From: Thermoflexales bacterium | GTDB lineage: Bacteria; Chloroflexota; Anaerolineae; Fen-1058 | Reading direction: 5' to 3' | NCBI GenBank assembly: GCA_016931085.1 | Contig: JAFGFO010000433.1 | Span: forward strand, 1-24,024 | DNA length: 24,024 nt | In this document: in pieces, positions 4,487 to 20,609 of the stretch | Numbering within the stretch: the stretch's first letter is position 1 | Layout of the letters: each line of letters begins with the position of its first letter | Notes under the pieces: model-generated | Seen by the model: the letters and a program-made list of their open reading frames with translations, nothing else | The model's database searches: none | What the model was told of the DNA's origin: nothing | Made by a program: the position numbers and the translations under genes

Positions 4487-7400
4487 ATGCGTTCTTTGCG
4501 CGTTCCACGTTCCTTCGTTCATACTGTGAACGTCCTTGTCGTATTGTCTTTGCTTTCGAGCACATCCAGCCCAGCACCTGCGGCTGGCCATGGCTCGTCG
4601 GCCTTGCCCACGCAAGTCGTCAATGTCTCCACTTTGCCGGTGTTCCTATCCTCGATCGTGTGGGCCAAGCCCACGCTGTCACTGGCCCCCAGCATTCCGC
4701 CTGCCGCCCTCAATATCCCGGCTGCTCCAGTTATTTCGCAGGCAGATGTCGAGTCGCAGCAGGCAGACTTTCTCCCACCGCAGGTCTACCACCCTCACGC
4801 CTATCTCGTCTACTTCCCCATCGTCATGAAGAATTACCCGCCGGTGTCTTCCACGCTTTCATTGGATATGGGTATGGCCGCCCACCCCGGCTTGGTCGAG
4901 GCCGGCCAAGATGTGACCTTTACCGTGGCGTTGTCTAACCCGAACGACGCGCCGCTGGCAGGCTTGCTGCTCAGCGCCACGCTGCCCGGCGAGCTGGACT
5001 GGGTTTCACACCAGGCGGGTTGGGACTACGACGAGCCGGATCGGCGCGTGAGCGCCAAAGTGGGAACACTCGCGCCGGGCGCGGAGATTAGCTCGACCCT
5101 GCGATTGCGCACCCTCAAGCCAGAGCACGTGCCCCTCGGCCAAAGCAAGAAGGCAACCCTGGCCATCGAGGCACGCCAGGACGCCCCGGCCGGCTATGGC
5201 CCACTGGCGGATGCTTCGGCCTCAGTCACGATCACGCTGCCTGCCACGCCAACGCTGGCGCTGACGTTGGCCGTCTGGCCAGAGATCGCGCGTCCCGGCC
5301 GTTTGGTCACCTTCACGCTGACGCTGTCCAACACTGGCACGACGCCGGCCAGCGGGCTGGCGCTCCGCGCCGCAATCCCCAAGGGGCTGCACTGGGTCCA
5401 GGATCAGCCCGGCTGGGTCTATGACGGCTCGGCCAAGTGCGCGACGCTAGAGCTTGGCCTGCTGCCGCCAGGCGCGGTGAGGGTATTGACTTTCTACCTG
5501 CACACCAGCGGCCCCCTGGATAGCCCGGCGACACTGGCAGTTGAGGCGCTGTACGAGAAGTTGGTTGTGGGACGGGCCTCGGCCACGGTCTGGATTGTGC
5601 ACCCGACGCGGGGGGTAGAGGGCGTGCTGGACAAGAGCGTCACACCCTGGCTGGCCTGGCCTGGCGGCGCGGTGACCTACACCTTGAGCGTGCGCAACCC
5701 CGGCAACCATCCGTTGAAGAATGGCGTGGTGGTCGATCGCTTGCCGGGCGAGATCGAGGTCATCGAAGCCGAGGGAGCAGACTATGACCCACAGACGCGC
5801 GAGCTGCGCTGGGAGCCGGGGCAAATCAAGCCAGGCCAGTCTGTGACGCTGAGCGTCCTGGCGCGCCCGGCGGCGGGGGTCGAGATGGCGGTGGTGCACA
5901 ACAGCGCTGTCTTGAGCGCCGAGGCCGCGTCTTTGCCGCAGCCCATGACGGCGACGGCGGAGGCCACACTATACGTGGGCGGCTCGATCACGGCCACGAT
6001 CACACCCACCGGCGGCCTGATATCCGTCCTGGATGGGCTGACGACGCTGGACTTTCCGCCGGGGGCGGTGACGGAGACGGTCGTCGTGACGGTGAGTGTG
6101 CCGGTAACGCTGCCGGCGCCGCTCGAGTGGTCCACGGTCTACAGAGGCTATGCCCTGGATGTGCGGCTGCGCGCGCTGAACGGGGGCACGCCGGTCACCA
6201 CGACGCTGCGGCCGGTGACGATCACGCTGCAGTATGCGGCGCTGCCCACGCTTGGAGAAACGGTCTGGGAACCCTGGCTGGGAGTCTACCACTACGACGG
6301 GGCGCGAGGAGAATGGGGGTATCTGCGCACGCAGGTGGCGACGGACACCGGGGTATTGACTGCGACCACGCTTGGCTTTAGCGCGCTGGCGCTGGCAGAG
6401 GACAAGTTGGACACCGGTTGGAAGTTGCTGTACAACCCACCCCAACTGGCCACCTTTAGCGGCGCGGCGACCTACAACTACCCCATCGAGGCGCCGCCGG
6501 GGCGGAATGGCCTGCAGCCGGCCTTGAACCTGTCCTACAACAGCCGCCGGGTGGACGGCATCGTGGGTTGGGTGGACAGCGGTTGGGTTGGCCTGGGCTG
6601 GTCACTGGACACGGTGGAGATCGTGCGCGATGAGATAGACGTCGAGCATTCCGGCCCGGAGGACTATTATCTCGACTACGACCCAAGCTTTACCCTGCTG
6701 CTCAACGGCACCGGGCACAAGCTGTACGCGGGCGACGGCGTGGTCAACCACGGCCGGTATTATGCCAAGAATGCGCCGGGCCTGTACGTCTTGCGGGTGA
6801 ACGACTTGTGCACCCCGGCCACCTGTGATGGCTTCGAGGGTGGAGCGGCTACCGAAACCGGCGACTATTGGATCGTCCATTTGCCGGACGGCAGCCAGGT
6901 CACGTTGGGCAGCCAGGCTGACTCGGAGCAGGTCATCGCGCCGGTATGCAGTACGTATGGCTGTGGCGATTGGGCGAGCGACGCGAAATACGGCGGCCGC
7001 CAGGCCGGCCAGGCCGTTTACCGCTGGCGGGCGGACACGTTCACCGACACCTTTGGCAACCGCATCCAGGTCCACTACACCGAGTGCCACAGCGACGACG
7101 GCGGGCGCGATTCGGCCAGTTGGCCGGCCTGGATCGGCTACAATGCGGATGAGCAAGGCCGGTGGGGCACAGAGATCCGGTTCGAGACGGCCGGGTGTGG
7201 GGATCAGCCCGGAGCGATCACGAAGGACGACAAGATCATCTTTGGGCGTCACCCGCAGTTGGATGCCATCTGGATCAGCCACCTCGGGCAGGACGTGCGG
7301 CACGTGAAATTGGGCTACCAAAGTGCCAACAAGTCCAACAACGCCAAGATTCGGCGGCTGACCTCGATCCAGGAATTCGACGGGCAGGGGCAGCAGGCCC

Positions 7401-10400
7401 TGCCGGCGACGGTGTTTGGATACGAGAACTATGCCAACAAGGGCTTTTGCTTGTGGGACCCGTGGCGGGGCTGGTGCAAGCCCCACCGGCAGGAGACGTA
7501 CCAGTACCCGCGCCTGGTGCGGATCTACAACGGCTTTGGGGCGTTGGACGAGTTCAGCTACGCGCACGACGATCGGGCCAACGATAATGACCTGGGGTAC
7601 GCGTATCGCGTGGTGACGCACGCCACGTACGATGGCCAAAGCGGCCAGCCGGCAGTACGGAGCTATGCGTATGGCACGCCGTGCTACCACGTCCTGTACG
7701 AGGGCCACGGCACGCAGTGCGTCTCGCCTGACAGCAAAAAGGCGCTGGTCGGGTTCGACGTGGTGACCGAGACGGCGCACGGCTACGATGGGGAATGGCT
7801 GGCCGGCGCGGTCCATCACTTTCACGTCGAAAACGGCCCGGACCAATCCGAGTCGCCGGTGTTGGGCCGGGGGCGTTACGCCGAGAGCCTGGCCGAGGAC
7901 GGGCGCGTCCTGCAGACGGCCGAGACGCTGTGGGCCTACAGCCTGTTTGGAAACGGCGTGCCGTTCGTGTATGCGCGAGCCGTGACAGCCACCCAGGAAG
8001 GCCAGGTGCGCTGGGCGGCCTATGAGTACGACCCGGCCTTGCAGGGTGGGACCCAGTACGGCAACCTGACCTCGGAGTACGACTATGGCGACGCCGATCT
8101 CGAGGGCGACGAGCGCACGATTTACCGGCAGTACGTCCCCAGCCCAGGTGGGTGGGTGGTGAACAAGCCGGCCTGGGAAAAGATCTACGAAGGCGTGGTC
8201 GACGATCCGGCCGCCGGCCCAGCGTTGAAGACAGAGGTGCTTTATCACTACGATGGCGCGCAGAGCGTCGAGGCAGCGCCGGCCCAGGGCGCCTTGACAT
8301 GGATGAGACGGGGCCGGGCCGGGGACGTGTGGCAAGACGCCTACACCAGCTACGACGCGTGGGGGAATCCCCAAGTGGTCACCGACGCACTGGGGCACGT
8401 TGCGACCACGCAGTATGATGAGGCGTATCACCTATACCCGGTGCAGACCACCAACGCCAAGGGGCACACCAGCAGCGTCGAGTATTACGGCCTCAACGCT
8501 GCCGGCGCGCCTGCTGGCGGGGGACAGCCGGGCCAGGTGTGGCGCACGTGGGATGCGAATGGTACAGAGACGGCCAACGCCTTCGTCTACGATAGCCTGG
8601 GGCGCTTGACCCGCCTGATCCGGCCCGGCGATACCGTCACGCTGCCCACGACGAGCCTGGTCTACGCGCATCCGCTGCCGGCCCAGCCCTACTCCAATGG
8701 CGGCTTCGAGGAGGACGAGCTGTGGACCAGTCCCAATGGGACTATCTGGAGCTACACGGCCGAGCAGACCCACAGCGGCAGCCGGGCCTTGAAGATCGAC
8801 ACGACCGGGTGGGGGAATGACTGGGTAGGGGAGAATCACACCTACCTCTCGGGTTGGCAAGCGGGCCACGCCTATTGGCTGGGCGCGTGGGTATACGTCA
8901 GTCAGGGGCAAGTGACGCTGGCGGTGTCGTATCGCTATTGCGTCGCGCGCAAGCCCAACGGCCAGTGTGACCGGCACGAGGACGGCAGTGTATCCATCGG
9001 CGTCGCGGGGGCAAGCGGTGCTTGGCAGTTCGTCTATGGCCCGGTCGTGCTGCCGCCTGGGGATTTCGCGGGCAAGCGGGTGACGTTCTACCCCACGCCA
9101 GGCACACTGGCTTACGTGGACGACGTGGTGTGGGGGCCGCCGCTGACGCCTCTGGCGATTGAGACCCGCCAGCGCGAACAGAGCGGCAAGGCCGGCGAGC
9201 TGGTCACGCTCGAGTTCTACGATGGGCTTGGACGGTTGCTGCAAACACGGGCCGAGGCGGAGAACAACCAACAAATGGTGACCAACCTGGCCTACGATGC
9301 GTTAGGGCGGGTGCAGTACGCCTACGCGCCAGAGTTCGAGCCGTTTAGTCAGGCGATGAGCCGGCCGGACGGCTGGCAGGCGCAGGCGCGGACGACGACG
9401 GAATACGATGGGCTGGGGCGGACGGTGGCAATCACCGCGCCGGATGGCACGACGACGCGCAGCACCTATGTGGGCCGGACGACGATCGTGACAGACGCCA
9501 ATGGCCACCGTAAGGACTCGGTAGCAGACGCCTTTGACCGGCTGGTTGCGGTCAGAGAGTACAGCGGGACCGAGGTGTACACCACCAGCTATGCTTACAA
9601 CATCTTGGGCAATCTGACGGGCGTGACCGATACGCTGGGCAACACCACCGTCATCACCTACGACACGCTGGGACGCAAGACGGGGATGCACGACCCCGAT
9701 ATGGACAATTGGCGCTATGGCTACGATCCAGCCGGCAACCTGCTCTACCAGGTGGACGCCAAGCGGCAGGCGGTCAACTTTTACTACGACGAGCTGAGCC
9801 GGCCGGTGGGCAAGACCTACGCAACGGAGGTGGTGGACGCGGCGAGCTATCAACGTCCCGACCCGCCGCCGGACAACAAGTACAATGTGTGGTACGACTA
9901 TGACGAGGGCCAGTATGGCATCGGGCAGCGCACGTCGATGGGCAACCGTCAGGCTTCGAGTGCCTGGAGCTACGACGAGCGCGGGCGGATGGTGCGGGAG
10001 AGCAAGACCATTGGCGAGATAGGGCCGTTCGACACAACGTACAGTTTCGACGCGTTGGACCGCGTAGTGAGCACGACCTACCCCGACGGCGAGGTAGTGG
10101 AGCAGAGCTACAACGCCGGCGCCCAGCCCGACAGTCTGGGCAGCAGTCAAGGAGAAACGTTCGTGAGCGGGACCGAGTACAACGCGCTGGGGCAACCGGT
10201 GCGCGTGGGCTACGGCAGCGGGTTGGAAACGCGCTACGCTTACTTTGGACTGGACACCGCGCAGCAGTGGGGCAACCAGTTCTACGGCCGGCTGTTCCAG
10301 GTGTGCGTCATCCAGGGCGGCGCGGATTGCCCCGCTAACGATCAGAGCGATGCGCTGTTGAACCTGAGCTATTGGTACGACGCGGGCGGCAACGTCACGG

Positions 10401-13285
10401 CCATCCGTGACCGCACCCCGGCGGGCGACAACCAAGTGCAGCATTTCGTTTACGACAGCCTGGATCGCCTGCGGCGAGGCTACACCGATCCCCAGGGCAG
10501 CGGCGTGGGAGATTATGACGAGAGTTATACCTACAACGCCATTGGCAATCTTTTGAGCAAGGGTGAAGTCACCTACACATACGCCGACAAGCCAGGTGAT
10601 CCTCGGCCTCACGCCGTCACTGACCTCAGCGATGGCTCGCATTTCGAGTACGATGCCAACGGCAACATGACACTGAGGGTAGAAGTTGGCCCCACGCAGA
10701 CGCTCACCTACGAGCAAGAGTTTGATGTGGAAAACCGGCTGGTGGCCGTGACGGCGAGGGGCGGCGTCGAGGCGGTCACGCGCTTCTATTACGACGGCGA
10801 TGGCGCGCGGGTGGCGCAGGTTACCCAGGCCGGCACGACTATCTACGTCGGCGATCACTACGAGTTGTTCTTCCCCGATCTGGATCTATCGCAGGCAGAG
10901 CGCGATATCTTCCAACTGGCCGCCGGCAGCGGCGCTCAGACCGGCGCGCGTATTGAAACCGCACCCGGTATGGGGCAATCTCTGCTGGTGTACCTGGACA
11001 ACGTGAGCTACACACCCGGCGGCCTGCCTTATGGCGACGTCGTAGGGCAGTGGCTGGATGAAGCAGGCGAGCGGGTGGGCGCGCCGTTCGTGATCGCGAA
11101 CGCGACCGAGGTCGAGCAGTTCTACCGGCCCTACATCTCTTACAATCCGTACAACCGGCGCTTCCTGGTCACAATGCCGGCCTCGTCGGCAGCAGGCGGC
11201 AGCCGGGTGGCCTATGCCTTGGTTGACGTGGCGGGGACAGTTGGCGCGCTGCACTACGTCGGGGCGGGCGAGTGGACGGCCGGCCTGGAGCGCATGATCG
11301 TATCCGAGGCTCACCCTGTTGATGGCACGTGGTTGTTGTTTTGGGATGGGGGGAAACAGGGCCAGCTTTCCAGCGGCCCCTCGTGGGGTTCGTGTGGCCT
11401 GGCACTGCTGGTGGATGCGAATGGCGCCCCGGTGGGCGAGCCACTCCAGGTCACGGAATGGGGCGCGATGGCCGGCTCGCAGATCGTGCCGGCGGTGGCG
11501 TTTGACCCGGGCGACCAGCGTTGGCTGCTGGTCTGGAGCACTAACCCGCACGGCTCGCCACGCCGCGTTTTGGGTCGGTTCGTTGGCCCGGTGAGCCTGA
11601 CGCCGACACTTCCTATCTCTATCTCTATCTCTGTCTCTATCGCCACGACCTATCGTGACGCCTTTGCGCCGGCGATGGCCTACAACGCGGTCGAGGACGA
11701 GTTCTTGGTGGCTTTCACCGTCAACGGCCTCGTCAACCTGCCTGGGCAGACAGGCGGCGTGAACCGTTCCTGGGAGCTTGTCTACCAACGCGTGCTGGCC
11801 GATGGGACATTGCCGGGCGGCGTGGAAGCGCCTGTACTGCTCGACAAGCACGGCACCCACAACTGGACGGATGCTAACTCGCTGGAAGTGGTGAGCGGGA
11901 CAGGCGAGTATCTGCTGAGCTACGCTTCTGTCCGGGACGGCGGCGGGTTCTTTACCGGCCCCTATGACGTGCGGCAGTTCAGGCTTGATGGGCAAGGGGC
12001 TAACCCGACCAACGGCCTGGTCTCTGACTATACCCCGCGAGCGACAGACGGGGAGTACGACGTGGCCGTGGGTGACGGCGGCAGCGTGCTGGCCGTGTGG
12101 AGCGACCTGCGCGACGGTACGCCGCACATTTGGGGCCGGCGCTACGGTGTGGGTGACGAGCTCCCCACACCGCGCGTGACGAAATACTACTACCACGGCG
12201 GCCAGCGCGTGGCCATGCGCGATGGAGACGTAGTGTACTACCTGCATGGCGACCACCTCGGCAGCACCTCGCTGGCGACCTACGGCAGTGGGCCACAGAT
12301 GGGGCAGCCTGTGCAGGACAGCCGGGTGTGGTATTACCCCTATGGCGAGGTGCGCTATGGCGGGGATGGCCTGCCGACTGACTTTGGCTTTACAGGTCAG
12401 AAAGCCGTGCCAGGAACGGGGTTGATGTATTACAAGGCGCGCTATTATCACCCTGTGTTGGGACGGTTCGTGAGCGCGGACTCGATAGTGCCCAATGCAC
12501 TCGATCCCCAACTACTTAACCACTACAGCTACGCTGGGGACAATCCTGTCCTGTATATTGACAAGAATGGTCACCTCCCCATCTTGCCTGTTTTGATTGC
12601 TGTTGTGGCCCTTTTGGGTCTACTGGCTAGCGGGTGTTCGGGTCCTGATCAGACCCAAGCTGTTCTTCAGTCTACAGTCATAATTGATCACAATACAGAA
12701 ACTCAGCAACAGCAGGGGAACAGAATCATTGTAAGACAGAGGACACCCGCCAGCATCAGCTTGGGGACCGTAGTCGGCCCTCAATCTGTGCTCACGCATG
12801 GTCACTACGCTCCCGGAGATTCCCTTCAAGATCCCAGCTATACTGCGGAGTCACTCACTTTTTACAATCACGAGGGACAACTTATCGCCGATATACCTGC
12901 TGCAAATATAGCGATTCCTATGTCTGATAATGGGACAACACTCTTGGTAGGACCAAACCTGGGAGTGAAGCCAGCACTTATGGGTGATCCTACTGACCTC
13001 AAAGTTGGTGACAGAGTACTATTGGTTTACAAGGACGCGAATGGGCAAGCGGCTGTCTTGAGATCTACAGTGGAAGAAATGAGTGCTACACAGGGAGGGA
13101 TTCCGATTGCGCGGATAAAAGATCCGCTCAATGTGGGGGAAGTCGGTGATTCCGGAGGCGGTGTATTCGATACAAGGGGGAGACTGATTGGTAACAATTG
13201 GTGGGTTGGGCTCAATGCAGATGGACTTTCAGTAGCATTTTTTGTTGCCTTGCTGCCGGAAAATACTTCTCAAAATGTTAGGTAG
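4487..13285 (+). CDS. Sec-exported RHS/YD-repeat polymorphic toxin with trypsin-like C-terminal domain
   Basis: 2932 residues. The ATG is fixed by AGGAGG at 4476-4481, 5 bases upstream. Domain order: signal peptide 1-33 (hydrophobic VNVLVVLSLLSS, cleavage after PAPAA); YFPIVMKNY at 109-117; three DUF11-like repeats (about 123-498); a ZU5-like region (about 501-635); an SpvB-like start of the RHS shell (about 640-1040); YD/RHS repeats to about 2130, interrupted at 1402-1548 by a jellyroll, carbohydrate-binding-like insert; a beta-propeller-like insert (about 2128-2563); the RHS-associated core (about 2564-2697, with DHLGSTSLAT and GRFVSADS); and a hydrophobic segment plus trypsin-like tip. RHS shells of this family encapsulate a C-terminal toxin. 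Export by Sec and the lack of PAAR or VgrG motifs resemble WapA more than type VI Rhs. A lipoprotein gene follows after 64 bases and may encode immunity. Partial copies of the 3' end occur three times downstream. Confidence 0.92.
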   Translation: MRSLRVPRSFVHTVNVLVVLSLLSSTSSPAPAAGHGSSALPTQVVNVSTLPVFLSSIVWAKPTLSLAPSIPPAALNIPAAPVISQADVESQQADFLPPQVYHPHAYLVYFPIVMKNYPPVSSTLSLDMGMAAHPGLVEAGQDVTFTVALSNPNDAPLAGLLLSATLPGELDWVSHQAGWDYDEPDRRVSAKVGTLAPGAEISSTLRLRTLKPEHVPLGQSKKATLAIEARQDAPAGYGPLADASASVTITLPATPTLALTLAVWPEIARPGRLVTFTLTLSNTGTTPASGLALRAAIPKGLHWVQDQPGWVYDGSAKCATLELGLLPPGAVRVLTFYLHTSGPLDSPATLAVEALYEKLVVGRASATVWIVHPTRGVEGVLDKSVTPWLAWPGGAVTYTLSVRNPGNHPLKNGVVVDRLPGEIEVIEAEGADYDPQTRELRWEPGQIKPGQSVTLSVLARPAAGVEMAVVHNSAVLSAEAASLPQPMTATAEATLYVGGSITATITPTGGLISVLDGLTTLDFPPGAVTETVVVTVSVPVTLPAPLEWSTVYRGYALDVRLRALNGGTPVTTTLRPVTITLQYAALPTLGETVWEPWLGVYHYDGARGEWGYLRTQVATDTGVLTATTLGFSALALAEDKLDTGWKLLYNPPQLATFSGAATYNYPIEAPPGRNGLQPALNLSYNSRRVDGIVGWVDSGWVGLGWSLDTVEIVRDEIDVEHSGPEDYYLDYDPSFTLLLNGTGHKLYAGDGVVNHGRYYAKNAPGLYVLRVNDLCTPATCDGFEGGAATETGDYWIVHLPDGSQVTLGSQADSEQVIAPVCSTYGCGDWASDAKYGGRQAGQAVYRWRADTFTDTFGNRIQVHYTECHSDDGGRDSASWPAWIGYNADEQGRWGTEIRFETAGCGDQPGAITKDDKIIFGRHPQLDAIWISHLGQDVRHVKLGYQSANKSNNAKIRRLTSIQEFDGQGQQALPATVFGYENYANKGFCLWDPWRGWCKPHRQETYQYPRLVRIYNGFGALDEFSYAHDDRANDNDLGYAYRVVTHATYDGQSGQPAVRSYAYGTPCYHVLYEGHGTQCVSPDSKKALVGFDVVTETAHGYDGEWLAGAVHHFHVENGPDQSESPVLGRGRYAESLAEDGRVLQTAETLWAYSLFGNGVPFVYARAVTATQEGQVRWAAYEYDPALQGGTQYGNLTSEYDYGDADLEGDERTIYRQYVPSPGGWVVNKPAWEKIYEGVVDDPAAGPALKTEVLYHYDGAQSVEAAPAQGALTWMRRGRAGDVWQDAYTSYDAWGNPQVVTDALGHVATTQYDEAYHLYPVQTTNAKGHTSSVEYYGLNAAGAPAGGGQPGQVWRTWDANGTETANAFVYDSLGRLTRLIRPGDTVTLPTTSLVYAHPLPAQPYSNGGFEEDELWTSPNGTIWSYTAEQTHSGSRALKIDTTGWGNDWVGENHTYLSGWQAGHAYWLGAWVYVSQGQVTLAVSYRYCVARKPNGQCDRHEDGSVSIGVAGASGAWQFVYGPVVLPPGDFAGKRVTFYPTPGTLAYVDDVVWGPPLTPLAIETRQREQSGKAGELVTLEFYDGLGRLLQTRAEAENNQQMVTNLAYDALGRVQYAYAPEFEPFSQAMSRPDGWQAQARTTTEYDGLGRTVAITAPDGTTTRSTYVGRTTIVTDANGHRKDSVADAFDRLVAVREYSGTEVYTTSYAYNILGNLTGVTDTLGNTTVITYDTLGRKTGMHDPDMDNWRYGYDPAGNLLYQVDAKRQAVNFYYDELSRPVGKTYATEVVDAASYQRPDPPPDNKYNVWYDYDEGQYGIGQRTSMGNRQASSAWSYDERGRMVRESKTIGEIGPFDTTYSFDALDRVVSTTYPDGEVVEQSYNAGAQPDSLGSSQGETFVSGTEYNALGQPVRVGYGSGLETRYAYFGLDTAQQWGNQFYGRLFQVCVIQGGADCPANDQSDALLNLSYWYDAGGNVTAIRDRTPAGDNQVQHFVYDSLDRLRRGYTDPQGSGVGDYDESYTYNAIGNLLSKGEVTYTYADKPGDPRPHAVTDLSDGSHFEYDANGNMTLRVEVGPTQTLTYEQEFDVENRLVAVTARGGVEAVTRFYYDGDGARVAQVTQAGTTIYVGDHYELFFPDLDLSQAERDIFQLAAGSGAQTGARIETAPGMGQSLLVYLDNVSYTPGGLPYGDVVGQWLDEAGERVGAPFVIANATEVEQFYRPYISYNPYNRRFLVTMPASSAAGGSRVAYALVDVAGTVGALHYVGAGEWTAGLERMIVSEAHPVDGTWLLFWDGGKQGQLSSGPSWGSCGLALLVDANGAPVGEPLQVTEWGAMAGSQIVPAVAFDPGDQRWLLVWSTNPHGSPRRVLGRFVGPVSLTPTLPISISISVSIATTYRDAFAPAMAYNAVEDEFLVAFTVNGLVNLPGQTGGVNRSWELVYQRVLADGTLPGGVEAPVLLDKHGTHNWTDANSLEVVSGTGEYLLSYASVRDGGGFFTGPYDVRQFRLDGQGANPTNGLVSDYTPRATDGEYDVAVGDGGSVLAVWSDLRDGTPHIWGRRYGVGDELPTPRVTKYYYHGGQRVAMRDGDVVYYLHGDHLGSTSLATYGSGPQMGQPVQDSRVWYYPYGEVRYGGDGLPTDFGFTGQKAVPGTGLMYYKARYYHPVLGRFVSADSIVPNALDPQLLNHYSYAGDNPVLYIDKNGHLPILPVLIAVVALLGLLASGCSGPDQTQAVLQSTVIIDHNTETQQQQGNRIIVRQRTPASISLGTVVGPQSVLTHGHYAPGDSLQDPSYTAESLTFYNHEGQLIADIPAANIAIPMSDNGTTLLVGPNLGVKPALMGDPTDLKVGDRVLLVYKDANGQAAVLRSTVEEMSATQGGIPIARIKDPLNVGEVGDSGGGVFDTRGRLIGNNWWVGLNADGLSVAFFVALLPENTSQNVR
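8690..9135 (+). other. Carbohydrate-binding-like insert within the YD-repeat shell
   Basis: Residues 1402-1548 of the RHS protein begin with YSNGGFEED and end with LAYVDDVVWG, the usual start and end of CBM4/9-like or discoidin-like beta-sandwich domains. The inner motif HSGSRALKIDT is also typical. YD-repeat sequence resumes on both sides, so this is a domain inserted into the shell. Ligand unknown. Confidence 0.6.
11023..12575 (+). repeat. Long direct repeat, copy A (propeller insert plus RHS core, in the full-length gene)
   Basis: This segment runs from GLPYGDVVGQWLDEAGE to the end of the RHS core (YIDKNGH). It is repeated in the same orientation at 13969-15525 (B), 17434-18962 (C) and, as a short remnant, 20398-20597 (D). 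Long stretches match at protein and DNA level, for example TNPHGSPRRVLGR, HGTHNWTDANSLEVV and LLSYASVRDGGGFF. Similarity stops abruptly after the core, where each copy has a different tip. D shares about 40 extra bases upstream with this copy (LLVYL and YTPGG motifs). Confidence 0.93.
11613..11641 (+). repeat. CTATCT hexanucleotide microsatellite
   Basis: Nearly five tandem copies of CTATCT, with one G substitution, encode the linker ISISISVSI in copy A. Copies B and C have only a single ISI at this point (STISIAATYRDAF), so the expansion is specific to the full-length gene. Being a hexamer, changes in copy number would alter linker length but not frame. Confidence 0.8.
12576..13282 (+). other. 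C-terminal tip A: hydrophobic segment plus trypsin-like serine protease domain
   Basis: Residues 2698-2932 of the RHS protein. Directly after the core comes a hydrophobic stretch (LPVLIAVVALLGLLASGC), then a domain with LTHGH (His2773, placed like the LTAAH motif of trypsins) and GDSGGGVFD (Ser2889). The position expected for the catalytic Asp (consensus DIAL) reads NIAI, with Asn2807, so activity is uncertain. The DNA is visibly AT-richer than the core, as expected for an exchangeable toxin tip. Confidence 0.75.
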
Positions 13286-13349
13286 TTTCCAAGTACTAGA
13301 TGGCTTCATCTGAACAACAATGGAACTGGCAGCATAAGGAGAACATGGA

Positions 13350-13955
13350 ATGAAAACTTCAAAAGTGGAAAGATCAATACAGGGATGGATTATTTTGATG
13401 ACAGTCCAAACCATTCTCTTGTTTATACTTAGTGCTTGTACAGGATCAAATACGCCTGCTTATGAAAGCACTGTTATGGTTGCGGCTTTAAGTAGCCCTA
13501 AGCAGACATTGACACCTGTAAAGCTACCAGGATTTTTGAGACAAGTGTTTCCACTTCCTAATGCTATATTGTCCTCGCGATCATACAACGAGCGGTTGAA
13601 GGGTTTAGCGATTATATATACAGGCGAAGTGGGAGTTGGGGTGGTCTTAGATAGTATAGCTGTTGCAGAAGTAGGCGATAGTCTTGATGAACAAGATGTT
13701 ATTAGTAGAGTTTCTTTGTTGATTGACGGCGAACCATTAATATTGGACACTCCGTTCGACTGGGTAAATCAGGAAGGAGCACATACGAAAGTGCTGGACG
13801 AACAAGGGCAACTATTATATGAGGTTGCTGGTGGAGATTACTGGATGCTTTGGCGGAAACCTCTTGGACTTGGGAAACACGAAGCCATGTTTCGTGTACG
13901 CAAGACTTCTGGTACGTTGCTAGAATATAGTTGGAGTTTTGAGCTTGTACCCTAA
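13350..13955 (+). CDS. Small lipoprotein after tip A, candidate immunity protein
   Basis: 201 residues. The ATG follows AAGGAGA (13336-13342) with 7-base spacing. The N-terminus has a basic start, a hydrophobic run and lipobox LSAC with Cys30, so a lipid-anchored extracytoplasmic protein is predicted. The rest is mostly beta-strand-like and ends with a beta-sandwich-like stretch (FRVRKTSGTLLEYSWSFEL). I do not recognise a named family. It is AT-rich, unlike the flanking RHS core repeats. Its place directly behind the trypsin-like tip, and in front of a displaced RHS module, is the usual position of an immunity gene. An exported inhibitor would suit an extracytoplasmic protease. That role is inferred from position only. 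Its TAA stop overlaps the ATG of the next frame (TAATG). Confidence 0.8.
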   Translation: MKTSKVERSIQGWIILMTVQTILLFILSACTGSNTPAYESTVMVAALSSPKQTLTPVKLPGFLRQVFPLPNAILSSRSYNERLKGLAIIYTGEVGVGVVLDSIAVAEVGDSLDEQDVISRVSLLIDGEPLILDTPFDWVNQEGAHTKVLDEQGQLLYEVAGGDYWMLWRKPLGLGKHEAMFRVRKTSGTLLEYSWSFELVP

Positions 13956-16192
13956 TGAGAGGCTACTGTGGCTTGCCCCACGGCGACGTCGCCGGGCAGT
14001 GGCTGGATGAGGACGGCGAGCCGGTGGGCGCGCCGTTCGTGATCGCGGCTGCGACCGAGGCTGTGCAGTTCTACCGGCCCTACGTCTCGTACAACCTGTA
14101 CAACCAACGTTTCCTGGTCTCGATGCCGTCCTTGTCGTCGGCGGGCAGCAGCCGGGTGGCCTATGCGCTGGTGGGCTTTGGGGAGACGACCAGCACACTG
14201 CGTTACGTCGGGGCGGGTGAGTGGACGGCCGGCCTGGAGCGCATGGTCGTGTCCGAGGCTAATCCTGCTGACGGCACATGGCTTTTATTCTGGGACGGAG
14301 GATTCTACCGCTACATCCCTGGCAGCTACCCCGATCACGCCTGGGGTTTGTGCGGTCTGGCGGTGGTGCTCGATGCCGGCGACAACTTGGTAGGCGATCC
14401 ATTCCAGGTCACGGAATGGGGCGCGACGGCCGCCTCGCAGATCGTGCCGGCGGTGGCGTTCGACCCGGGCGACCAGCGTTGGCTGCTGGTCTGGAGCACC
14501 AACCCGCACGGCTCGCCAAGGCGGGTGCTTGGTCGGTTAGTCGCGCGAAGCGGGTCGGGGGGTCAAATCACCGCCAGCAGTACGATCTCGATTGCGGCGA
14601 CTTATCGCGACGCTTTTGCGCCGGCGGTGACCTACAACCCGGCTGCGGGCGAGTTCTTGGTGGCTCTCACAATTAATGGCCGCGTTGGCGGTACTGATCA
14701 CCACTGGGATTTGCTCTACCAGCGTGTGCTGACCGATGGCACGCTGCCGGGCGGCGTGGAAGCGCCAGTGCCGCTCCCCAAGCACGGCACGCACAACTGG
14801 ACCGACGCCAACTCGCTGGAAGTGGTAACCAGCGACCAGCAACCAGCAACGAGTGAATACTTGCTGAGCTACGCCTCTGTCCGAGACGGCGGCGGGTTCT
14901 TCAGCGGCCCGTATGACGTGCGGCAGTTCAAATTGAGTAGCCAGGGCAGCCAGTTGAGCAACGGCTTGGTCTCTGACTATACCCCGCGAGCGACGGACGG
15001 CGAGTATGACGTGGCCGTGGGTGACGATGACACCGTTCTGGCCGTGTGGGGCGACCTGCGCGACAGCGCGCCGCACGTGTGGGGCCGGCGCTACGGCGTG
15101 GGCGACGAGCTACCCACCCCGCGCGTGACCAAATACTACTACCACGGCGGCCAGCGGGTGGCCATGCGTGAAGGAGATGTGGTATACTACCTGCACGGGG
15201 ATCATCTGGGCTCGACCAGTCTGGCGACTTACGGCAGCGGGCCACAGGCAGGGCAAGCCGTGCAAGACAGCCGGGTGTGGTACTACCCCTACGGCGAAGT
15301 GCGCTACGGAGGGGAGGGTTCGCCGACTGACTTTGGCTTCACAGGCCAGAAAGCCGTGCCAGGAACGGGGTTGATGTATTACAAGGCACGTTTTTATCAC
15401 CCGGCATTGGGACGGTTCGCGAGCGCGGATACAATAATACAAGACCCCAGCTATTCAGTCAGTCTGAACAGGTATGCTTATGCCTGGAATAATCCGCTTC
15501 GGTACACAGATAGCTCGGGGCACTGCATAGATGGGATCAGTACATGGGTGTGCATCGGCTTTGTCATCGCCGCATTGGCATTGACGACTTCTGGTTGTGC
15601 TGCTCAACCTGTTACGTATCAACCTCAAGAGCCCCAATTTAAGCCGCAAATTCAACTTCCTGTCATTTACAATCAACTGGAGGATGCCAGGCCACCAGAC
15701 TCCACTGTTGAGCGACCATACCATCCACGCGAAATACCAGCCCATCTTAGAGCCTGCGGTCCAACGTGTATGGCAATGATATTACAGTACTACATCGAAG
15801 AACGTGGAATTGCTCTTGACCCACAAAAGGTTGAACCTGATGACATTGTGTTTGATGCTCAGACAAAAGGATATTGGGATCAGTTAGAAGGTGGAGTAGG
15901 GCCAATAGCTCAGATGCTACAGCACGAGTATGGATTTCGTAATGTGCGAACTGGCGACTTGACCATAGAAATATTACAAGAAGCTATGCAGTCGGGTGTA
16001 CCACTCATTGTAGGAGTTGATCGCGCAGGCGAGGAAGGAGAGCTTCAGCGGGGACGGGGGCATGCAGTTGTAGTTGTAGGTTTTTCGGGGAACCAGAACC
16101 AAGTGATTCTGGTAGATCCATATGGTGGATATACGAGAGCATACGATGTTGAGCTAGTGAAAGACTGGGGCTATATCTGGGCCGAGCCATAG
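13955..16192 (+). CDS. Orphan RHS C-terminal module B with C39-like peptidase tip
   Basis: 745 residues with no N-terminal signal and no YD-repeat shell. It starts directly in the propeller insert (GLPHGDVAGQWLDEDGE), continues through the RHS core (DHLGSTSLAT, YTDSSGH) and ends in a tip unrelated to that of the full-length gene. The tip begins with a hydrophobic stretch ending LALTTSGC. It then carries a papain-like C39 peptidase signature: ACGPTCMAM (Cys601), GRGHAVVVVGF (His703) and VDPYGG (Asp721), the expected catalytic order. The ATG at 13955 overlaps the upstream stop as TAATG, but I see no good Shine-Dalgarno. It may be translated by coupling or may be silent until recombined into the full-length gene. 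A short CAGCAAC-type expansion near 14824-14853 adds a few linker residues. A propeller gene follows 10 bases downstream. Confidence 0.82.
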   Translation: MRGYCGLPHGDVAGQWLDEDGEPVGAPFVIAAATEAVQFYRPYVSYNLYNQRFLVSMPSLSSAGSSRVAYALVGFGETTSTLRYVGAGEWTAGLERMVVSEANPADGTWLLFWDGGFYRYIPGSYPDHAWGLCGLAVVLDAGDNLVGDPFQVTEWGATAASQIVPAVAFDPGDQRWLLVWSTNPHGSPRRVLGRLVARSGSGGQITASSTISIAATYRDAFAPAVTYNPAAGEFLVALTINGRVGGTDHHWDLLYQRVLTDGTLPGGVEAPVPLPKHGTHNWTDANSLEVVTSDQQPATSEYLLSYASVRDGGGFFSGPYDVRQFKLSSQGSQLSNGLVSDYTPRATDGEYDVAVGDDDTVLAVWGDLRDSAPHVWGRRYGVGDELPTPRVTKYYYHGGQRVAMREGDVVYYLHGDHLGSTSLATYGSGPQAGQAVQDSRVWYYPYGEVRYGGEGSPTDFGFTGQKAVPGTGLMYYKARFYHPALGRFASADTIIQDPSYSVSLNRYAYAWNNPLRYTDSSGHCIDGISTWVCIGFVIAALALTTSGCAAQPVTYQPQEPQFKPQIQLPVIYNQLEDARPPDSTVERPYHPREIPAHLRACGPTCMAMILQYYIEERGIALDPQKVEPDDIVFDAQTKGYWDQLEGGVGPIAQMLQHEYGFRNVRTGDLTIEILQEAMQSGVPLIVGVDRAGEEGELQRGRGHAVVVVGFSGNQNQVILVDPYGGYTRAYDVELVKDWGYIWAEP
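13969..15525 (+). repeat. Long direct repeat, copy B
   Basis: Homologous to 11023-12575, beginning about 14 bases after the stop of the upstream lipoprotein gene and ending with the RHS core at DSSGH. It is closer to copy C than to copy A in the middle: both have GGFYR-IP-SYPDHAWGLCGLAV, where copy A reads differently. Confidence 0.92.
15526..16189 (+). other. C-terminal tip B: hydrophobic segment plus C39-like cysteine peptidase
   Basis: Residues about 525-745 of orphan B. The Cys-His-Asp order with ACGPT, GHAVVVVG and VDPYGG is the signature of the peptidase C39-like (papain-fold) group. Such domains occur both in bacteriocin-processing transporters and as polymorphic toxin tips. Here the setting behind an RHS core favours the toxin-tip reading. 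The DNA is AT-richer than the core. Confidence 0.8.
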
Positions 16193-16202
16193 GGAGGGAG
16201 CG

Positions 16203-17435
16203 GTGAATAAAGTGAGGATATGGTTGACTGTTGGGGTGATGCTCATAGTCGGAGTTTTGTTGATAACTCTGTGTCAATCTAAACCGCATAGCCCTATAGA
16301 TCCCACCCTGAGTTCTGACTCAGAGCCAGGAACGTGGCGAATGTACGGTTATGATTTGGCTCACACCCGCTTTTCACCTGAGGTGGCACTACCACCCAAG
16401 GGAGAATTGGTCTGGCGACATGCGATTCCCGGCTCGATCTCTTCCGCTCCGCTGATCGTAGATAACATAGTCTATGTGGTTGGTTGGGAAGGCACAGTTG
16501 TTGCGCTGGATGTTGATACAGGTGAGGAAATATGGCTCACCCAACTTGATGTAGAGACTTCCTACGTGCAATCTTTGAGTATTGCGAATGACATGCTCTA
16601 TGTAGCGGGTGAATATGATGTTGCTGACAAATTGTACGCGCTGGATCGGCATACCGGCAAGGTACTATGGCAACATAGCGCTACCAGTTACATAGCACCT
16701 GTTGTCTACCGTGGATTTATTTACCGGCGAGCCACTTTGCGAAAAGATGACTTAACCCATGTAATTGAAGTGCGAGATGCAGCAACGGGAAAGTGGATTA
16801 GAGCGTTTCCACTCAAAACCATAGGCGGTCTCGGTCCAGTGCTGGAGGATCACCTGTTATTCACAGGTGATACCGGCGGCTATATTTATGCCTTCGATTT
16901 GAATATGGGCAGAGCAATATGGATTGCCCAGAAGGGAGGAAAGTCAATAAGTGGTATGATGCTTGCAGAGGGCAAACTGTACGTAATCGAAGGCATCGGC
17001 GATGTTGTTGCAATCAAGCCACATACTGGAGTAGAATTGTGGCGATTTAAGAATCCCGGAAGTATATGGTGGGAATGGGACGGCGCAGCTGCCTACGGGA
17101 TGGTTTTCGTAGTGGGCAGTAATAAGGACGTGGGAAATATTCTTTACGCTCTTGATGCGGAAACGGGTGAAGCGCGTTGGCAATTCCAAGTTGAGGGAAA
17201 AGTTGACGCGCCACCGGCTATTGCAAATGGCAGGATTTACCTTGGCACTGCTATTTACCCTGGCGGTTATGCTCGACACCCTGAAAGAGGTAAAATATAC
17301 TCGGTGGATGCAATCGGTGGAAAGTTGGTTTGGGTACTGGACGCTCCACCTGTGATGTACTCTGCTGCTCCCATCATTGTGAATGGGGTGTTGTATGTCG
17401 GCACAAGCACAGGGGAAGTACTAGCAATCCGATGA
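16203..17435 (+). CDS. Membrane-anchored PQQ-type beta-propeller protein, candidate immunity partner of tip B
   Basis: 410 residues. Start GTG at 16203, supported by GGGAGGG ending at 16199, just 10 bases after the stop of orphan B. The N-terminus has a hydrophobic segment (VGVMLIVGVLLITL) followed by Cys, but the residue before the Cys is Leu, so the lipobox is poor and an uncleaved anchor is possible. The body is a PQQ/BamB-like propeller with at least six blades carrying an A-L-D-x-x-TG-x-x-x-W motif, such as VALDVDTGEEIW, YALDRHTGKVLW, YAFDLNMGRAIW, VAIKPHTGVELW, YALDAETGEARW and YSVDAIGGKLVW. No dehydrogenase partner is nearby. Its position between the C39 tip and the next displaced core makes it the candidate immunity gene. 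An unrelated passenger gene cannot be excluded. Its stop codon lies exactly at the start of repeat copy C. Confidence 0.85.
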   Translation: MNKVRIWLTVGVMLIVGVLLITLCQSKPHSPIDPTLSSDSEPGTWRMYGYDLAHTRFSPEVALPPKGELVWRHAIPGSISSAPLIVDNIVYVVGWEGTVVALDVDTGEEIWLTQLDVETSYVQSLSIANDMLYVAGEYDVADKLYALDRHTGKVLWQHSATSYIAPVVYRGFIYRRATLRKDDLTHVIEVRDAATGKWIRAFPLKTIGGLGPVLEDHLLFTGDTGGYIYAFDLNMGRAIWIAQKGGKSISGMMLAEGKLYVIEGIGDVVAIKPHTGVELWRFKNPGSIWWEWDGAAAYGMVFVVGSNKDVGNILYALDAETGEARWQFQVEGKVDAPPAIANGRIYLGTAIYPGGYARHPERGKIYSVDAIGGKLVWVLDAPPVMYSAAPIIVNGVLYVGTSTGEVLAIR

Positions 17436-18962
17436 TGTCGCCGGGCAGTGGCTCGACGAGGACGGCGAGCCGGTGGGAGAGCCGTTCGTGATCGCGGATG
17501 CGACCGGGGTCGAGCAGTTCTACCGGCCCTACGTCTCGTACAACCCCTACAACCAGCGTTTCCTGGTCTCGATGCAGGCCTTGTCGACAGCGGGCGGCAG
17601 CCGGGTGGCTTATGCGCTGGTGGGCCTTGGGGAGACGACCAGCGCGCTGCGCGTCACGTCGGGGCGGGCGAGTGGACGGCCGGCCTGGAGCGCATGGTCG
17701 TGTCCGAGGCCAATCCTGTTGATGGCACGTGGCTGCTGTTTTGGGATGGGGGATTCTACCGTCACATCCCCGATAGTTACCCCGATCACGCCTGGGGTTT
17801 GTGCGGGCTGGCAGTGGCGGTCGATGCTGACGGCAACCCGGTGGGCGAGCCGTTCCAAGTTACGGAATGGGGGGCAACGGCCAGCTCGCAGATCGTGCCG
17901 GCGGTGGCGTTTGACCCCAGCAGCCAGCGTTGGCTGCTGGCCTGGAGCACCAACCCGCACGGCTCGCCAAGGCGGGTGCTTGGTCGGTTAGTCGAGTGGT
18001 CGCGCGAAGCGGGTCAGATCACCGCCAACAGTACGATCTCGATTGCAGCAACTTATCGCGACGCCTTTGCGCCGGCGGCAGCCTACAACCCGGCCGCGGG
18101 CGAGTTCTTGGTCGCCTTCACCGTCAACGGTCTCGTCAACAGCGTGAACCGTTCCTGGGAGCTCGTCTACCAGCGCGTGCTGACCGATGGCATGCTGCCG
18201 GGTGGCGTGGAAGCGTCAGTGCTGCTCGACAGACACGGCACGCACAACTGGACCGATGCCAACTCGCTGGAGGTTGTGAGCGGGACAGGCGAATACTTGC
18301 TGAGCTACGCATCTGTCCGGGACGGCGGCGGGTTCTTCACCGGCCCGTATGACGTGCGCCAGTTCAGGCTAGATGGGCAAGGGGCAGGCCCCTCCAACGG
18401 CCTGGTGTCTGACTATACCCCGCGAGCAACGGATGGGGAATACGACGTGGCCGTGGGTGACGGCGGCAGCGTGCTGGCCGTGTGGGGCGACCTGCGAGAC
18501 GGCGCACCGCACGTTTGGGGCCGACGCTACGGTGTAGGTGATGAGCTCCCCACACCGCGTGTGACCAAATACTACTACCACGGCGGGCAGCGGGTGGCAC
18601 AGCGCACGCTGGAGGGATTGTATTACCTGCACGGCGATCACCTGGGCTCGACCAGCCTGGCCACCTACGGCAGCGGGGCACAAATAGGGCAGATTGTGCC
18701 GGACAGCCGGGTGTGGTACTATCCCTATGGCGAGGTGCGCTACGGCGGAGAGGGCTCACCGACCGACTTTGGCTTCACGGGTCAGAGGAATGTGCCTGGC
18801 ACTAACTTGATCCACATGGGCGCACGCTGGTATGACCCGCGACTTGGCCGTTGGATCAGCGCAGACACTCTTGTGCCCGATTTCTCCAATCCGCAGAGCC
18901 TCAATCGATACAGTTACGTCTACAACAGACCTTTGGCTTTCATCGACCGGGGCGGGCACCTG
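17434..18962 (+). repeat. Long direct repeat, copy C (frameshifted)
   Basis: Homologous to 11023-12575 and 13969-15525. It starts at GATGTCGCCGGGCAGTGG, overlapping the stop codon of the propeller gene by two bases, and ends with the RHS core at IDRGGH. Compared with copy B, two extra bases occur at about 17653-17657 (CGCGTCACGTC against CGTTACGTC). Confidence 0.92.
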
Positions 18963-19667
18963 CCGGTACCAGTTATTGTTGCACTCGTAGTCCTTGGTGG
19001 TGTTGGCGTTGGTTACGGGGTTAGCACACTTCTAGGCTATCATACCCTACCTTTTGATCCTCCAACGATGATAACAAACAGGGTTACGGATCAATATCCT
19101 ATTACTTCGAGCGACATGACCGTATGGCTTTGTAATCAACTGGTGACGAATGCTCAATCTGACGTTGTGCACAGGATTCAAGAAGCTTGGCTCAGTGGGA
19201 ATCTGGCGAAACAGGATGCAGCAATGCAGGCATGGACGGCCCTTGTAGGCACCGGTGCAACTTGGGATTTCAAACCTGATATTATACTGGCGGACAAGTT
19301 TATCCCAGGTACATATGACATTATACTGGGCAATCGTCAACTCCATTACGACGTTATTGCCAACATACACTTTGGCTTTGTGGGGCGTGCTGCGGGCTTT
19401 AGTGGCGAGCTCCTTAAGTGGGGTGCTGGTATTGCTCAAACAAAGCGAGCGATAACAACCCTCGATCCAGAAAACTTTGGAGATTGCCTGGGTTCCTATT
19501 GCGACCATCCCTATGCTACCTGGGCTATAGGGTTTGGCACCTCTCTCTACAAGGATTACTGGTATCGACTGGATGAGCTGACCGATGAGGCTTTCACTCA
19601 AGCCCTGCAAGCATACATCGAAGAGTATGGGGAGATGCCCCCTTGTACCCAGTCGTGGTGTACACCT
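18963..19667 (+). other. C-terminal tip C: polymorphic toxin type 44-like domain
   Basis: After the hydrophobic stretch (VPVIVALVVLGGVGVGYGV) the tip contains WDFKP (about 19263), then LHYDVIANIHFGFVGRAAGF (about 19340-19400), LLKWGAGIAQ, and DHPYATWAIGFG (about 19504). From memory this is the pattern of the bacterial toxin 44 (Ntox44, PF15607) family, a tip domain of polymorphic toxins that is predicted, not known to me as proven, to act on nucleic acid. The His and Asp residues in these motifs are the likely functional ones. Confidence 0.75.
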
Positions 19668-19685
19668 TGATACTTGAGGTGAACA

Positions 19686-20306
19686 ATGTGTGTAAAAAGG
19701 TTACATTGTAAATGGACGGACAAGAAATTGACACTGATCATACTACTTGTAGCTACACTGGCCCTATTCCTGGCAGCTTGTGCTCTCCTGGAGCCGCCCG
19801 CCCCACAGCGTTCTTTCGCACTCAAAGAACTATTGATTGATCAAGAAACTGTATCACCAGCCTGGGAAGCCTTTAAGCCTTTTTGCCCATGCAAAGACGA
19901 TATGTGCACTACCGAGTGCGTCGCTATACAGTTTGGAATCTATGATAGAGAACCGCCGATACGAGCCAGTCAGGATATTTATCGTTACCGTAGCATGGGC
20001 ATCGCGCAGCGCACATTTGAGCAAGTGTACTTGCCACGATTCGAGTTTCTCAACTCAAATGGCGAGTGGATATATCAAAGCCCAATAGCAGATCAGTCAC
20101 ACTTTGGTTGCTATGACTCAAAAGGGCATACAGAACCAGTGTGCCAGTGGGCTGGCCGTTACGAGGAATATATAGTGGTCTTCAGGGCGCATATGCTCTC
20201 AGGCGAAATGTCACTGGAGGGGATGGAACAAGTGGTTAGGGCTATTGACGCACGGATGGCGCAGTATTTGGACAAGCCCTACCAGAGCACCCCAACAGGC
20301 AGGTAG
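19686..20306 (+). CDS. Small lipoprotein after tip C, candidate immunity protein
   Basis: 206 residues. The ATG follows GAGGTGA (19677-19683), 15 bases after the stop of orphan C. It has a basic N-terminus, a hydrophobic run and a perfect lipobox LAAC (Cys32), so it should be a lipoprotein. The mature part has clustered cysteines (CPCKDDMCTTEC, then Cys residues in FGCYDSKG and VCQW) that could form disulfides outside the cytoplasm. I do not recognise a family. By position it would be the immunity gene for the type 44 tip. An exported location is unexpected for protection against a toxin predicted to act in the cytoplasm, so the pairing is less certain than for the protease tips. Confidence 0.78.
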   Translation: MCVKRLHCKWTDKKLTLIILLVATLALFLAACALLEPPAPQRSFALKELLIDQETVSPAWEAFKPFCPCKDDMCTTECVAIQFGIYDREPPIRASQDIYRYRSMGIAQRTFEQVYLPRFEFLNSNGEWIYQSPIADQSHFGCYDSKGHTEPVCQWAGRYEEYIVVFRAHMLSGEMSLEGMEQVVRAIDARMAQYLDKPYQSTPTGR

Positions 20307-20324
20307 TCCCTGTTCGTCGAGTCA

Positions 20325-20337
20325 GTTTCATTGAAAC
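20325..20337. repeat. Short perfect palindrome GTTTCA-T-TGAAAC
   Basis: A 13-base inverted repeat in the 91-base spacer between the lipoprotein gene and copy D. It resembles the end of some CRISPR repeats but occurs once only. It could be a small operator or part of a weak hairpin. Confidence 0.4.
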
Positions 20338-20397
20338 ACTGTAGGCAGGTCGTGGGAAACGGAAGAAGACTATCAAGGCAGTGATGGACGCGAGGTG

Positions 20398-20597
20398 CTC
20401 TGCTGGTGTACCTGAGCAAGGTGGACTACACGCCTGGTGGTGGTCTGCCCCATGGCGACGTCGTCGGGCAGTGGCTGGATGAGGCAGGTGAGGTGGTAGG
20501 GGAGCCGTTCGTGATCGCGGACGCGACCGGGGCCGAGCAGTTCTACTGGCCTTACGTCTCGTACAACCCCTACAACCAGCGTTTTCTGGTTTCGATG
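20398..20597 (+). repeat. Long direct repeat, copy D (200-bp truncated remnant)
   Basis: This starts at CTCTGCTGGTGTACCTG, matching copy A from about 10980 (slightly further upstream than B and C), and ends at TCTGGTTTCGATG, where copies A-C continue with the propeller. It encodes DVVGQWLDEAGEVVGEPFV to YNPYNQRFLVSM and then runs in frame into the beta-helix gene. No RHS core or tip remains. It marks the far end of the module array. Confidence 0.88.
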
Positions 20598-20609
20598 AGG
20601 AGAACTGGT

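Follow-up and report, generated by a model that had tools for sequence, protein, structure and literature searches.

In a 24,024-bp stretch of DNA from Thermoflexales bacterium of the class Anaerolineae (assembly GCA_016931085.1, contig JAFGFO010000433.1, positions 1 to 24,024 of the forward strand; hereafter the window), a gene for a large RHS protein is followed on the same strand by three further copies of part of its own sequence, of decreasing completeness. This is a genuine orphan RHS array, of a kind that is already known but with details that are new. Most probably, it is a polymorphic-toxin locus in which the RHS gene is followed by a row of displaced C-terminal cassettes that is fed by recombination. 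Each cassette would consist of the end of the carrier gene (shell), a tip, and a partner gene, packed head to tail. Because signal peptide and shell are joined only to the first cassette, only its tip (tip A) would be exported and delivered, B and C would be unexported spares, and D would be a stub. Alleles with other tips would come in through homologous recombination within the conserved module (propeller plus core end). Older tip/partner pairs would thereby be pushed downstream and lose sequence there, and recombination would also shuffle modules, giving rise to the mosaic copy C. The exported partners probably guard the membrane's outer face, each against its own tip.

The features are as follows.

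4487..13285, +: RHS carrier (shell) gene, 2,932 aa (domain matches and list of open reading frames)
11021..12480, +: repeat copy A, a beta-propeller-like insert (to ~12172) and most of the final RHS core segment
12578..13285, +: tip A, S1-type serine-protease-like, GDSGGG motif (sub-threshold Pfam match and motif)
13350..13955, +: partner A, lipoprotein-like, lipobox LSAC, 201 aa, candidate immunity protein
13968..15429, +: repeat copy B, within an intact 745-aa frame (13955-16192)
15527..16192, +: tip B, Peptidase_C39_2-type cysteine peptidase
16203..17435, +: partner B, PQQ/BamB-type beta-propeller, hydrophobic signal-like N terminus, candidate immunity protein (single case)
17434..18786, +: repeat copy C, mosaic of B-like and A-like halves, broken frame
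18787..19670, +: tip C with the last 58 aa of core, Ntox44 toxin domain
19686..20306, +: partner C, lipoprotein-like, lipobox LAAC, two invariant cysteines, Ntox44-linked family
20398..20597, +: remnant D, 200 bp of the module 5' end with neither core nor tip, ending where the next gene may start

Anatomy of the Array

The shell protein has a Sec-signal-like N terminus (judged by eye), followed by DUF11/NEW3-type, SpvB, YD/RHS repeat (RHS_repeat), and Rhs_assc_core domains and then the live tip A, and thus a full-length RHS/YD-repeat carrier stands upstream of the repeat copies. A search of the shell protein at an E value of 0.1 found no PAAR family match; it carries DUF11 and SpvB instead and does not conform to the PAAR-carrying Rhs type of the type VI secretion system. 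The closest named relatives of the window's proteins are RHS proteins of Chloroflexota/Anaerolineae.

All four copies are direct and have abrupt ends, and a repeat search of the window reported no inverted repeat of at least 40 nt. In BLASTN comparisons copies A and B are 78.6% identical (1488 columns), A and C 81.1%, and B and C 83.6%, with scores of 1233-1434 bits that are beyond chance; identity to remnant D is 82.4% for A (193 columns), 84.8% for B (158), and 87.9% for C (141). The first ~1.15 kb of the module encodes a domain that, by eye, interrupts the core after the motif YVGDHYE and before TKYYYHGGQRVAMR, and only about the last 130 aa are core, which at copy A extends to ~12577. AlphaFold predicts the inserted domain to be all-beta (predicted TM score 0.80, mean pLDDT 70.6, three sequences), and Foldseek returned 193 matches at an E value of 0.001 or less, with TM scores to the query of up to 0.55; most of the best 50 of these 193 we take to be beta-propellers (GH43 enzymes, lactonases, and WD40 proteins). 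As modeled, most of the repeated stretch is an inserted beta-propeller-like domain, not RHS core only. Relatives carry other domains at the same place (by eye): immunoglobulin-like domains in P0162, P0173, and L003 and a further insert in L001.

The downstream copies keep part of the conserved region and none has a signal peptide by eye. The frame of copy B, which has no shell, begins with an ATG at 13955 that overlaps the preceding stop codon (TAATG). The frame of copy C breaks near 17650; its native frame lacks a start at the left end but has internal GTG (17473) and ATG (17572) codons, and a mechanically called GTG open reading frame of 740 aa spans the break in another frame. Copies B and C then change abruptly to an unrelated tip, as copy A does in the live gene, and GC content is ~0.63-0.67 in the modules versus ~0.40-0.53 in tips and partners.

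Tip B matches Peptidase_C39_2 (PF13529) at 48.5 bits and tip C matches Ntox44 (PF15607) at 44 bits, the curated cut-off being 24 in both cases; fold assignment was attempted for tip C and none was obtained. Tip A, with 20.3 bits against Trypsin_2 (PF13365), stays under the cut-off of 27.6 and is not assigned to that family, and its matches to S1 proteases in the PDB are weak (best E value 0.0086). A THxH motif (by eye) and GDSGGG are found alike in tip A and in a stand-alone exported protease in L072. All three partners have a hydrophobic signal-like N terminus and two have a lipobox. Partners A and B are each known from one locus, and partner A has no match in Pfam or NCBIfam. A lipobox-like motif also stands right after the RHS core in tip A (LASGC, ~12626-12637), tip B (TSGC, ~15587-15598), and P0135. 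This is rare among 124 tips, and is as if a released tip could be lipidated.

Much of this anatomy had been described in an earlier reading made from the letters alone (the sequence-only reading). It had the end of the RHS gene repeated directly three times downstream, as we find, over 1.55 kb, which is better given as ~1.35-1.49 kb. Its abrupt change to an AT-richer tip and an exported partner in A-C is borne out by the tip and partner matches and by the GC profile, which falls at the tip boundaries. Among its tip names, C39 peptidase and toxin 44 score above their cut-offs and the trypsin-like tip A does so only below. The intact, shell-less frame of B, the frameshift of C, and the 200-bp length of D stand; calling C devoid of a start codon was too strong in view of the internal GTG and ATG. 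Its comparison with displaced rhs/wapA-type orphan modules, here behind a probably Sec-exported Chloroflexota-type gene, also agrees with our results, since the architecture recurs in Anaerolineae.

Age and Recombination of the Copies

Over 443 codons, nonsynonymous and synonymous divergence (dN/dS) is 0.153/0.572 for A and B, 0.126/0.488 for A and C, and 0.102/0.508 for B and C, that is, a dS of ~0.5 and ratios of 0.2-0.27. Changes unique to one copy number 44/26/67 at codon positions 1/2/3 in A, 26/28/67 in B, and 14/17/49 in C; this third-position excess implies that most of the divergence arose while the copies coded for protein, and neither in B nor in C are the changes spread evenly over the codon positions, as long drift of a pseudogene would leave them. 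B, C, and D resemble one another more than any of them resembles A.

Sites common to only two copies number 137 for B and C, 121 for A and C, and 80 for A and B, and they are not mixed at random along copy C, which is B-like before and A-like after A position ~11714 (maximum chi-square 39.7, 1,000 shuffles, p 0.001). By this site pattern copy C is a recombinant. At its tip end, the exchange point lies inside the core, immediately past TDFGFTGQ: identity over the final 58 core residues is 76% with P0084 and 74% with P0009 (54 aa), versus 50% with A, so that tips travel with a piece of core. The relative P0084 (612 aa, on another contig of 4,637 bp) has along the module mostly B-only, then A-only, then C-only residues. 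Judged by sequence, the copies are best regarded as alleles that diverged long ago within a recombining pool; they do not look like young duplicates that decay where they stand.

These data bear on two other histories. If three or four complete RHS genes had once stood side by side as old tandem paralogs, and B-D had lost their shells by deletion in place with no import, then high divergence under purifying selection and deletion-type remnants such as D would be expected, and both are seen. However, the left ends of B, C, and D all fall inside 56 bp of one module position, those of B and C lying at 14 and -2 nt relative to the stop codon of the partner gene before them, and unrelated tips on homologous modules together with mosaicism demand recombination anyway. 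We regard this history as unlikely, though less so than serial tandem duplication of the gene end in one lineage with each tip replaced afterwards. The latter would explain the head-to-tail order and the common left boundary, but tips and partners are unrelated and AT-richer and the copies are too diverged for a recent event, which makes it distinctly improbable.

Arrays in Other Anaerolineae

We surveyed 396 Anaerolineae genomes drawn from a larger group, scoring at most ten candidates per genome, and found a match to the end of the RHS core in 200 of them. Among the 150 matches listed, which come from 74 genomes, 107 lie in frames shorter than 700 aa, some of them short due to contig ends, and 28 in frames of at least 1300 aa. 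These 150 matches form 26 clusters (at least two matches within 7 kb on one strand). Six clusters have a full-length frame among the matches listed, and in all six it is the 5'-most, an order that independent deletions among tandem paralogs do not favor. That the window is an assembly artefact, with separate RHS loci of a metagenome joined together, is barely credible given 26 like clusters in other genomes, some on contigs of 4.7 and 5.1 Mb, and copies whose 12-21% difference should presumably not confuse an assembler.

Sixteen of the 26 clusters, picked by hand, were fetched, and the core profile revealed further partial modules in them. Completeness falls with rank: the proximal module is the fuller in 15 pairs and the distal one in 2 (15 arrays, permutation p 0.006), in a test that omits the window, the first module of each array, and two contig-edge modules. 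The GC content of the tip is below that of the core in 40 of 40 scorable modules of the 16 other arrays (mean 53.4 vs 60.3%) and in 3 of 3 in the window. Outside the window, modules start at a median of 106 nt past the preceding partner's stop (range 18-1263 in 22 cases). Within one array, aligned pieces of copies are ~66-97% identical and usually have less than 450 nt in common upstream of the core; this common stretch is longest in the window (1.15 kb), followed by L069 (969 nt) and L059 (690-714 nt). An open-access literature search by title found no description of orphan RHS arrays in Anaerolineae or Chloroflexota.

Tip C is live elsewhere: P0009, a protein of 2,035 aa, carries a tip with 61% identity to it over 201 aa, and in L056 a 1,966-aa frame with a 47%-identical tip is followed by a 44-45% identical homolog of partner C. 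Together with the mosaic copy C, these full shells agree with the proposal of the sequence-only reading that recombination between the repeats could swap tips, which may also occur in living populations. Its gradient of structural loss with distance also holds, in the window and statistically in the other arrays.

Several observations weigh against the displacement of cassettes from the shell outward. The sequence ages contradict a simple newest-first order, and the idea that the newest tip lies nearest the shell finds no support here, given the closeness of B, C, and D to each other and the age of the long pairs. The divergence of the copies is spread over their length, as it would be in old paralogs, which is part of what the sequence-only reading had itself named as a counter-sign. 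The first module found is partial in L060 and L064, L068 has a partial module in mid-array, and the most truncated module is the last in only 6 of 14 arrays with at least three modules. No genome searched joins this shell to tip B or C, a check that the earlier reading had proposed, and no relative of tip A was found on another RHS-length protein. The inserted domain has only relatives of 30-36% identity, in 10 of the 396 genomes, and four loci found in genome contigs match little beyond the core end. Even so, displaced cassettes fed by recombination seem to us the best account of the locus, with the direction of displacement probably outward from the shell.

Ntox44 and the Partner C Family

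A search with partner C (E value 0.01) gave matches in 40 of the 396 genomes. A tip-C-like domain lies directly upstream in 8 of the 15 partner C loci fetched; among the other seven, three have no RHS core in the fetched stretch and four have a core only downstream, the partner being within ~270 nt of a contig end in two of these four. Conversely, a Pfam search for Ntox44 found 29 matches in 23 of the 396 genomes, three of them in frames of ~2,000 aa. An RHS core lies upstream of 25 of the 29, an open reading frame of at least 70 aa lies downstream of 26, and 22 of these 26 encode a partner C homolog (E values refer to the frame sets of single loci, the weakest counted being 3e-4, and six genomes give two loci each). 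The downstream frames have a hydrophobic N terminus in 23 of 26 cases and a lipobox in 15; the former compares with 27 of 102 background frames (Fisher p 9e-9), with start codons picked for the strongest signal in both sets and signal rules that differed slightly between them. As a control, the 16 fetched arrays contain four partner C homologs in total, only in L056 and L057 and all just behind a tip-C-like domain (one of them weak); tip and partner are both absent from 13 arrays, and L069 has the tip without the partner. The three homologs in L057 (~13334, 14852, and 15816) stand in one array, each behind an Ntox44-like piece, one weak.

Both cysteines of partner C are conserved in 28 of 28 aligned sequences (partner C and all 27 homologs). 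None of 19 scanned members matches Pfam or NCBIfam, and the family profile matches no PDB chain. In the catalog of Zhang et al. (2012; PMC3482391; this and the other papers are cited from excerpts), the entry for Ntox44 shows a dash in the place that immunity families fill in other rows. Partner C and its homologs are a candidate for an uncatalogued, mostly membrane-anchored immunity family for Ntox44. Two later papers, in the excerpts, describe Ntox44 as an RNase toxin or a predicted one. A partner that is exported and has a conserved pair of cysteines instead fits a toxin that must be blocked outside the cytoplasm, as TelC is stopped by TipC, and suggests that Ntox44 acts at the envelope and not as an RNase. 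In TelC/TipC the immunity domain is N-terminally membrane-anchored and faces outward and the toxin acts outside the cytoplasm, as excerpted from PMC6193138; that toxin is exported by a type VII secretion system and has no RHS shell.

Going further, we give even credence to a wider proposal and to its negation. In it Ntox44 would be an envelope-acting toxin rather than a cytosolic RNase, and its RHS tips in Anaerolineae would have as partners a new immunity family that faces outward, is anchored by a lipid or in the membrane, and is held by a conserved pair of cysteines. The arrays of the class would be recombination-fed stores of warheads, of which many would act at the surface, among them peptidase tips with lipoproteins and a beta-propeller as their guards. 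A peptidase toxin described elsewhere is relevant: Cpe1 of the Cpe1/Cpi1 pair is a papain-like cysteine protease that serves as an interbacterial toxin, also with Rhs carriers, and may be compared with tip B (PMC12136450). Its targets in that account, GyrB/ParE, are cytosolic, which argues against the view that all peptidase tips act at the envelope; tip B has an exported partner.

Comparison with Known Systems

The array resembles the orphan rhs-CT/rhsI modules of Enterobacteriaceae (Salmonella LT2) as portrayed in the excerpts of PMC3967940: fragments of the conserved part with a new tip and a linked small gene lie 3' of a full rhs gene, and a tip that is an orphan in one strain can be the live one in a different strain. 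Most orphans there have neither a start nor an export signal; here B-D have no signal peptide by eye and C has no start at its left end, while B does have an ATG. An orphan tip can be activated when it recombines with the main gene, and in Salmonella lineages recombination has joined the main rhs gene to one (PMC3967940). Unlike in those modules, the shell here is probably Sec-exported and has DUF11 and SpvB with no PAAR match, the repeat is 1.4 kb long with a beta-propeller-like insertion, and the partners are exported.

Displaced modules are also known for WapA/WapI of Gram-positive bacteria. That system likewise has a secreted shell, a variable tip, and a downstream immunity gene (partly from PMC3967940), but the partners here appear lipoprotein-like or membrane-anchored and the shell is of Chloroflexota type. 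Standalone toxin-immunity cassettes of polymorphic toxins recombine with the 3' end of the carrier gene, as would happen here, and the same excerpts list Ntox44 with Chloroflexi and RHS (PMC3482391). They name Imm65 as the only apparent lipoprotein among the immunity proteins of the collection and say that no immunity protein had been found to be a beta-propeller (PMC3482391); the BamB/PQQ-type beta-propeller at 16203-17435 is, as a single case, the apparent partner of a C39 tip.

Neighboring Genes

The array is flanked upstream by a gene for a 1,292-aa protein with PKD, Big_9, and cadherin-like domains (2-3880, +), within which a 273-nt direct repeat occurs three times (2313-3158, 89-90% identical). 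A weak partner-C-like match at 3727-3876 (+; E value 1.4e-4 among window frames, best of 40 shuffled sets 0.017) lies out of frame inside another gene's end and is probably due to chance. Downstream, a protein encoded at 20595-22442 (+) has a CTLREA motif, Gly/Asn-rich repeats, and no Pfam match, and remnant D ends just where the possible ATG of this gene lies. A tyrosine recombinase gene (PF00589, 58.6 bits; 22471-24024, -) lies just past the array and runs off the window; its product has a long C-terminal extension with a weak PDDEXK_3 match.

Implications

Arrays of this kind are known as a spare-part store for weapons used between bacteria, and our results extend them from Enterobacteriaceae, where they are best studied, to Anaerolineae. 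What is added is a measurable rule across the class, in which the full gene comes first and modules shrink with distance, and a partner family for Ntox44. With the long repeats and the mosaic copy, tip switching can be tested directly by long-read sequencing. For Ntox44, to which the 2012 catalog as excerpted assigns no immunity family, the pairing offers a candidate one and predicts where the toxin would act.

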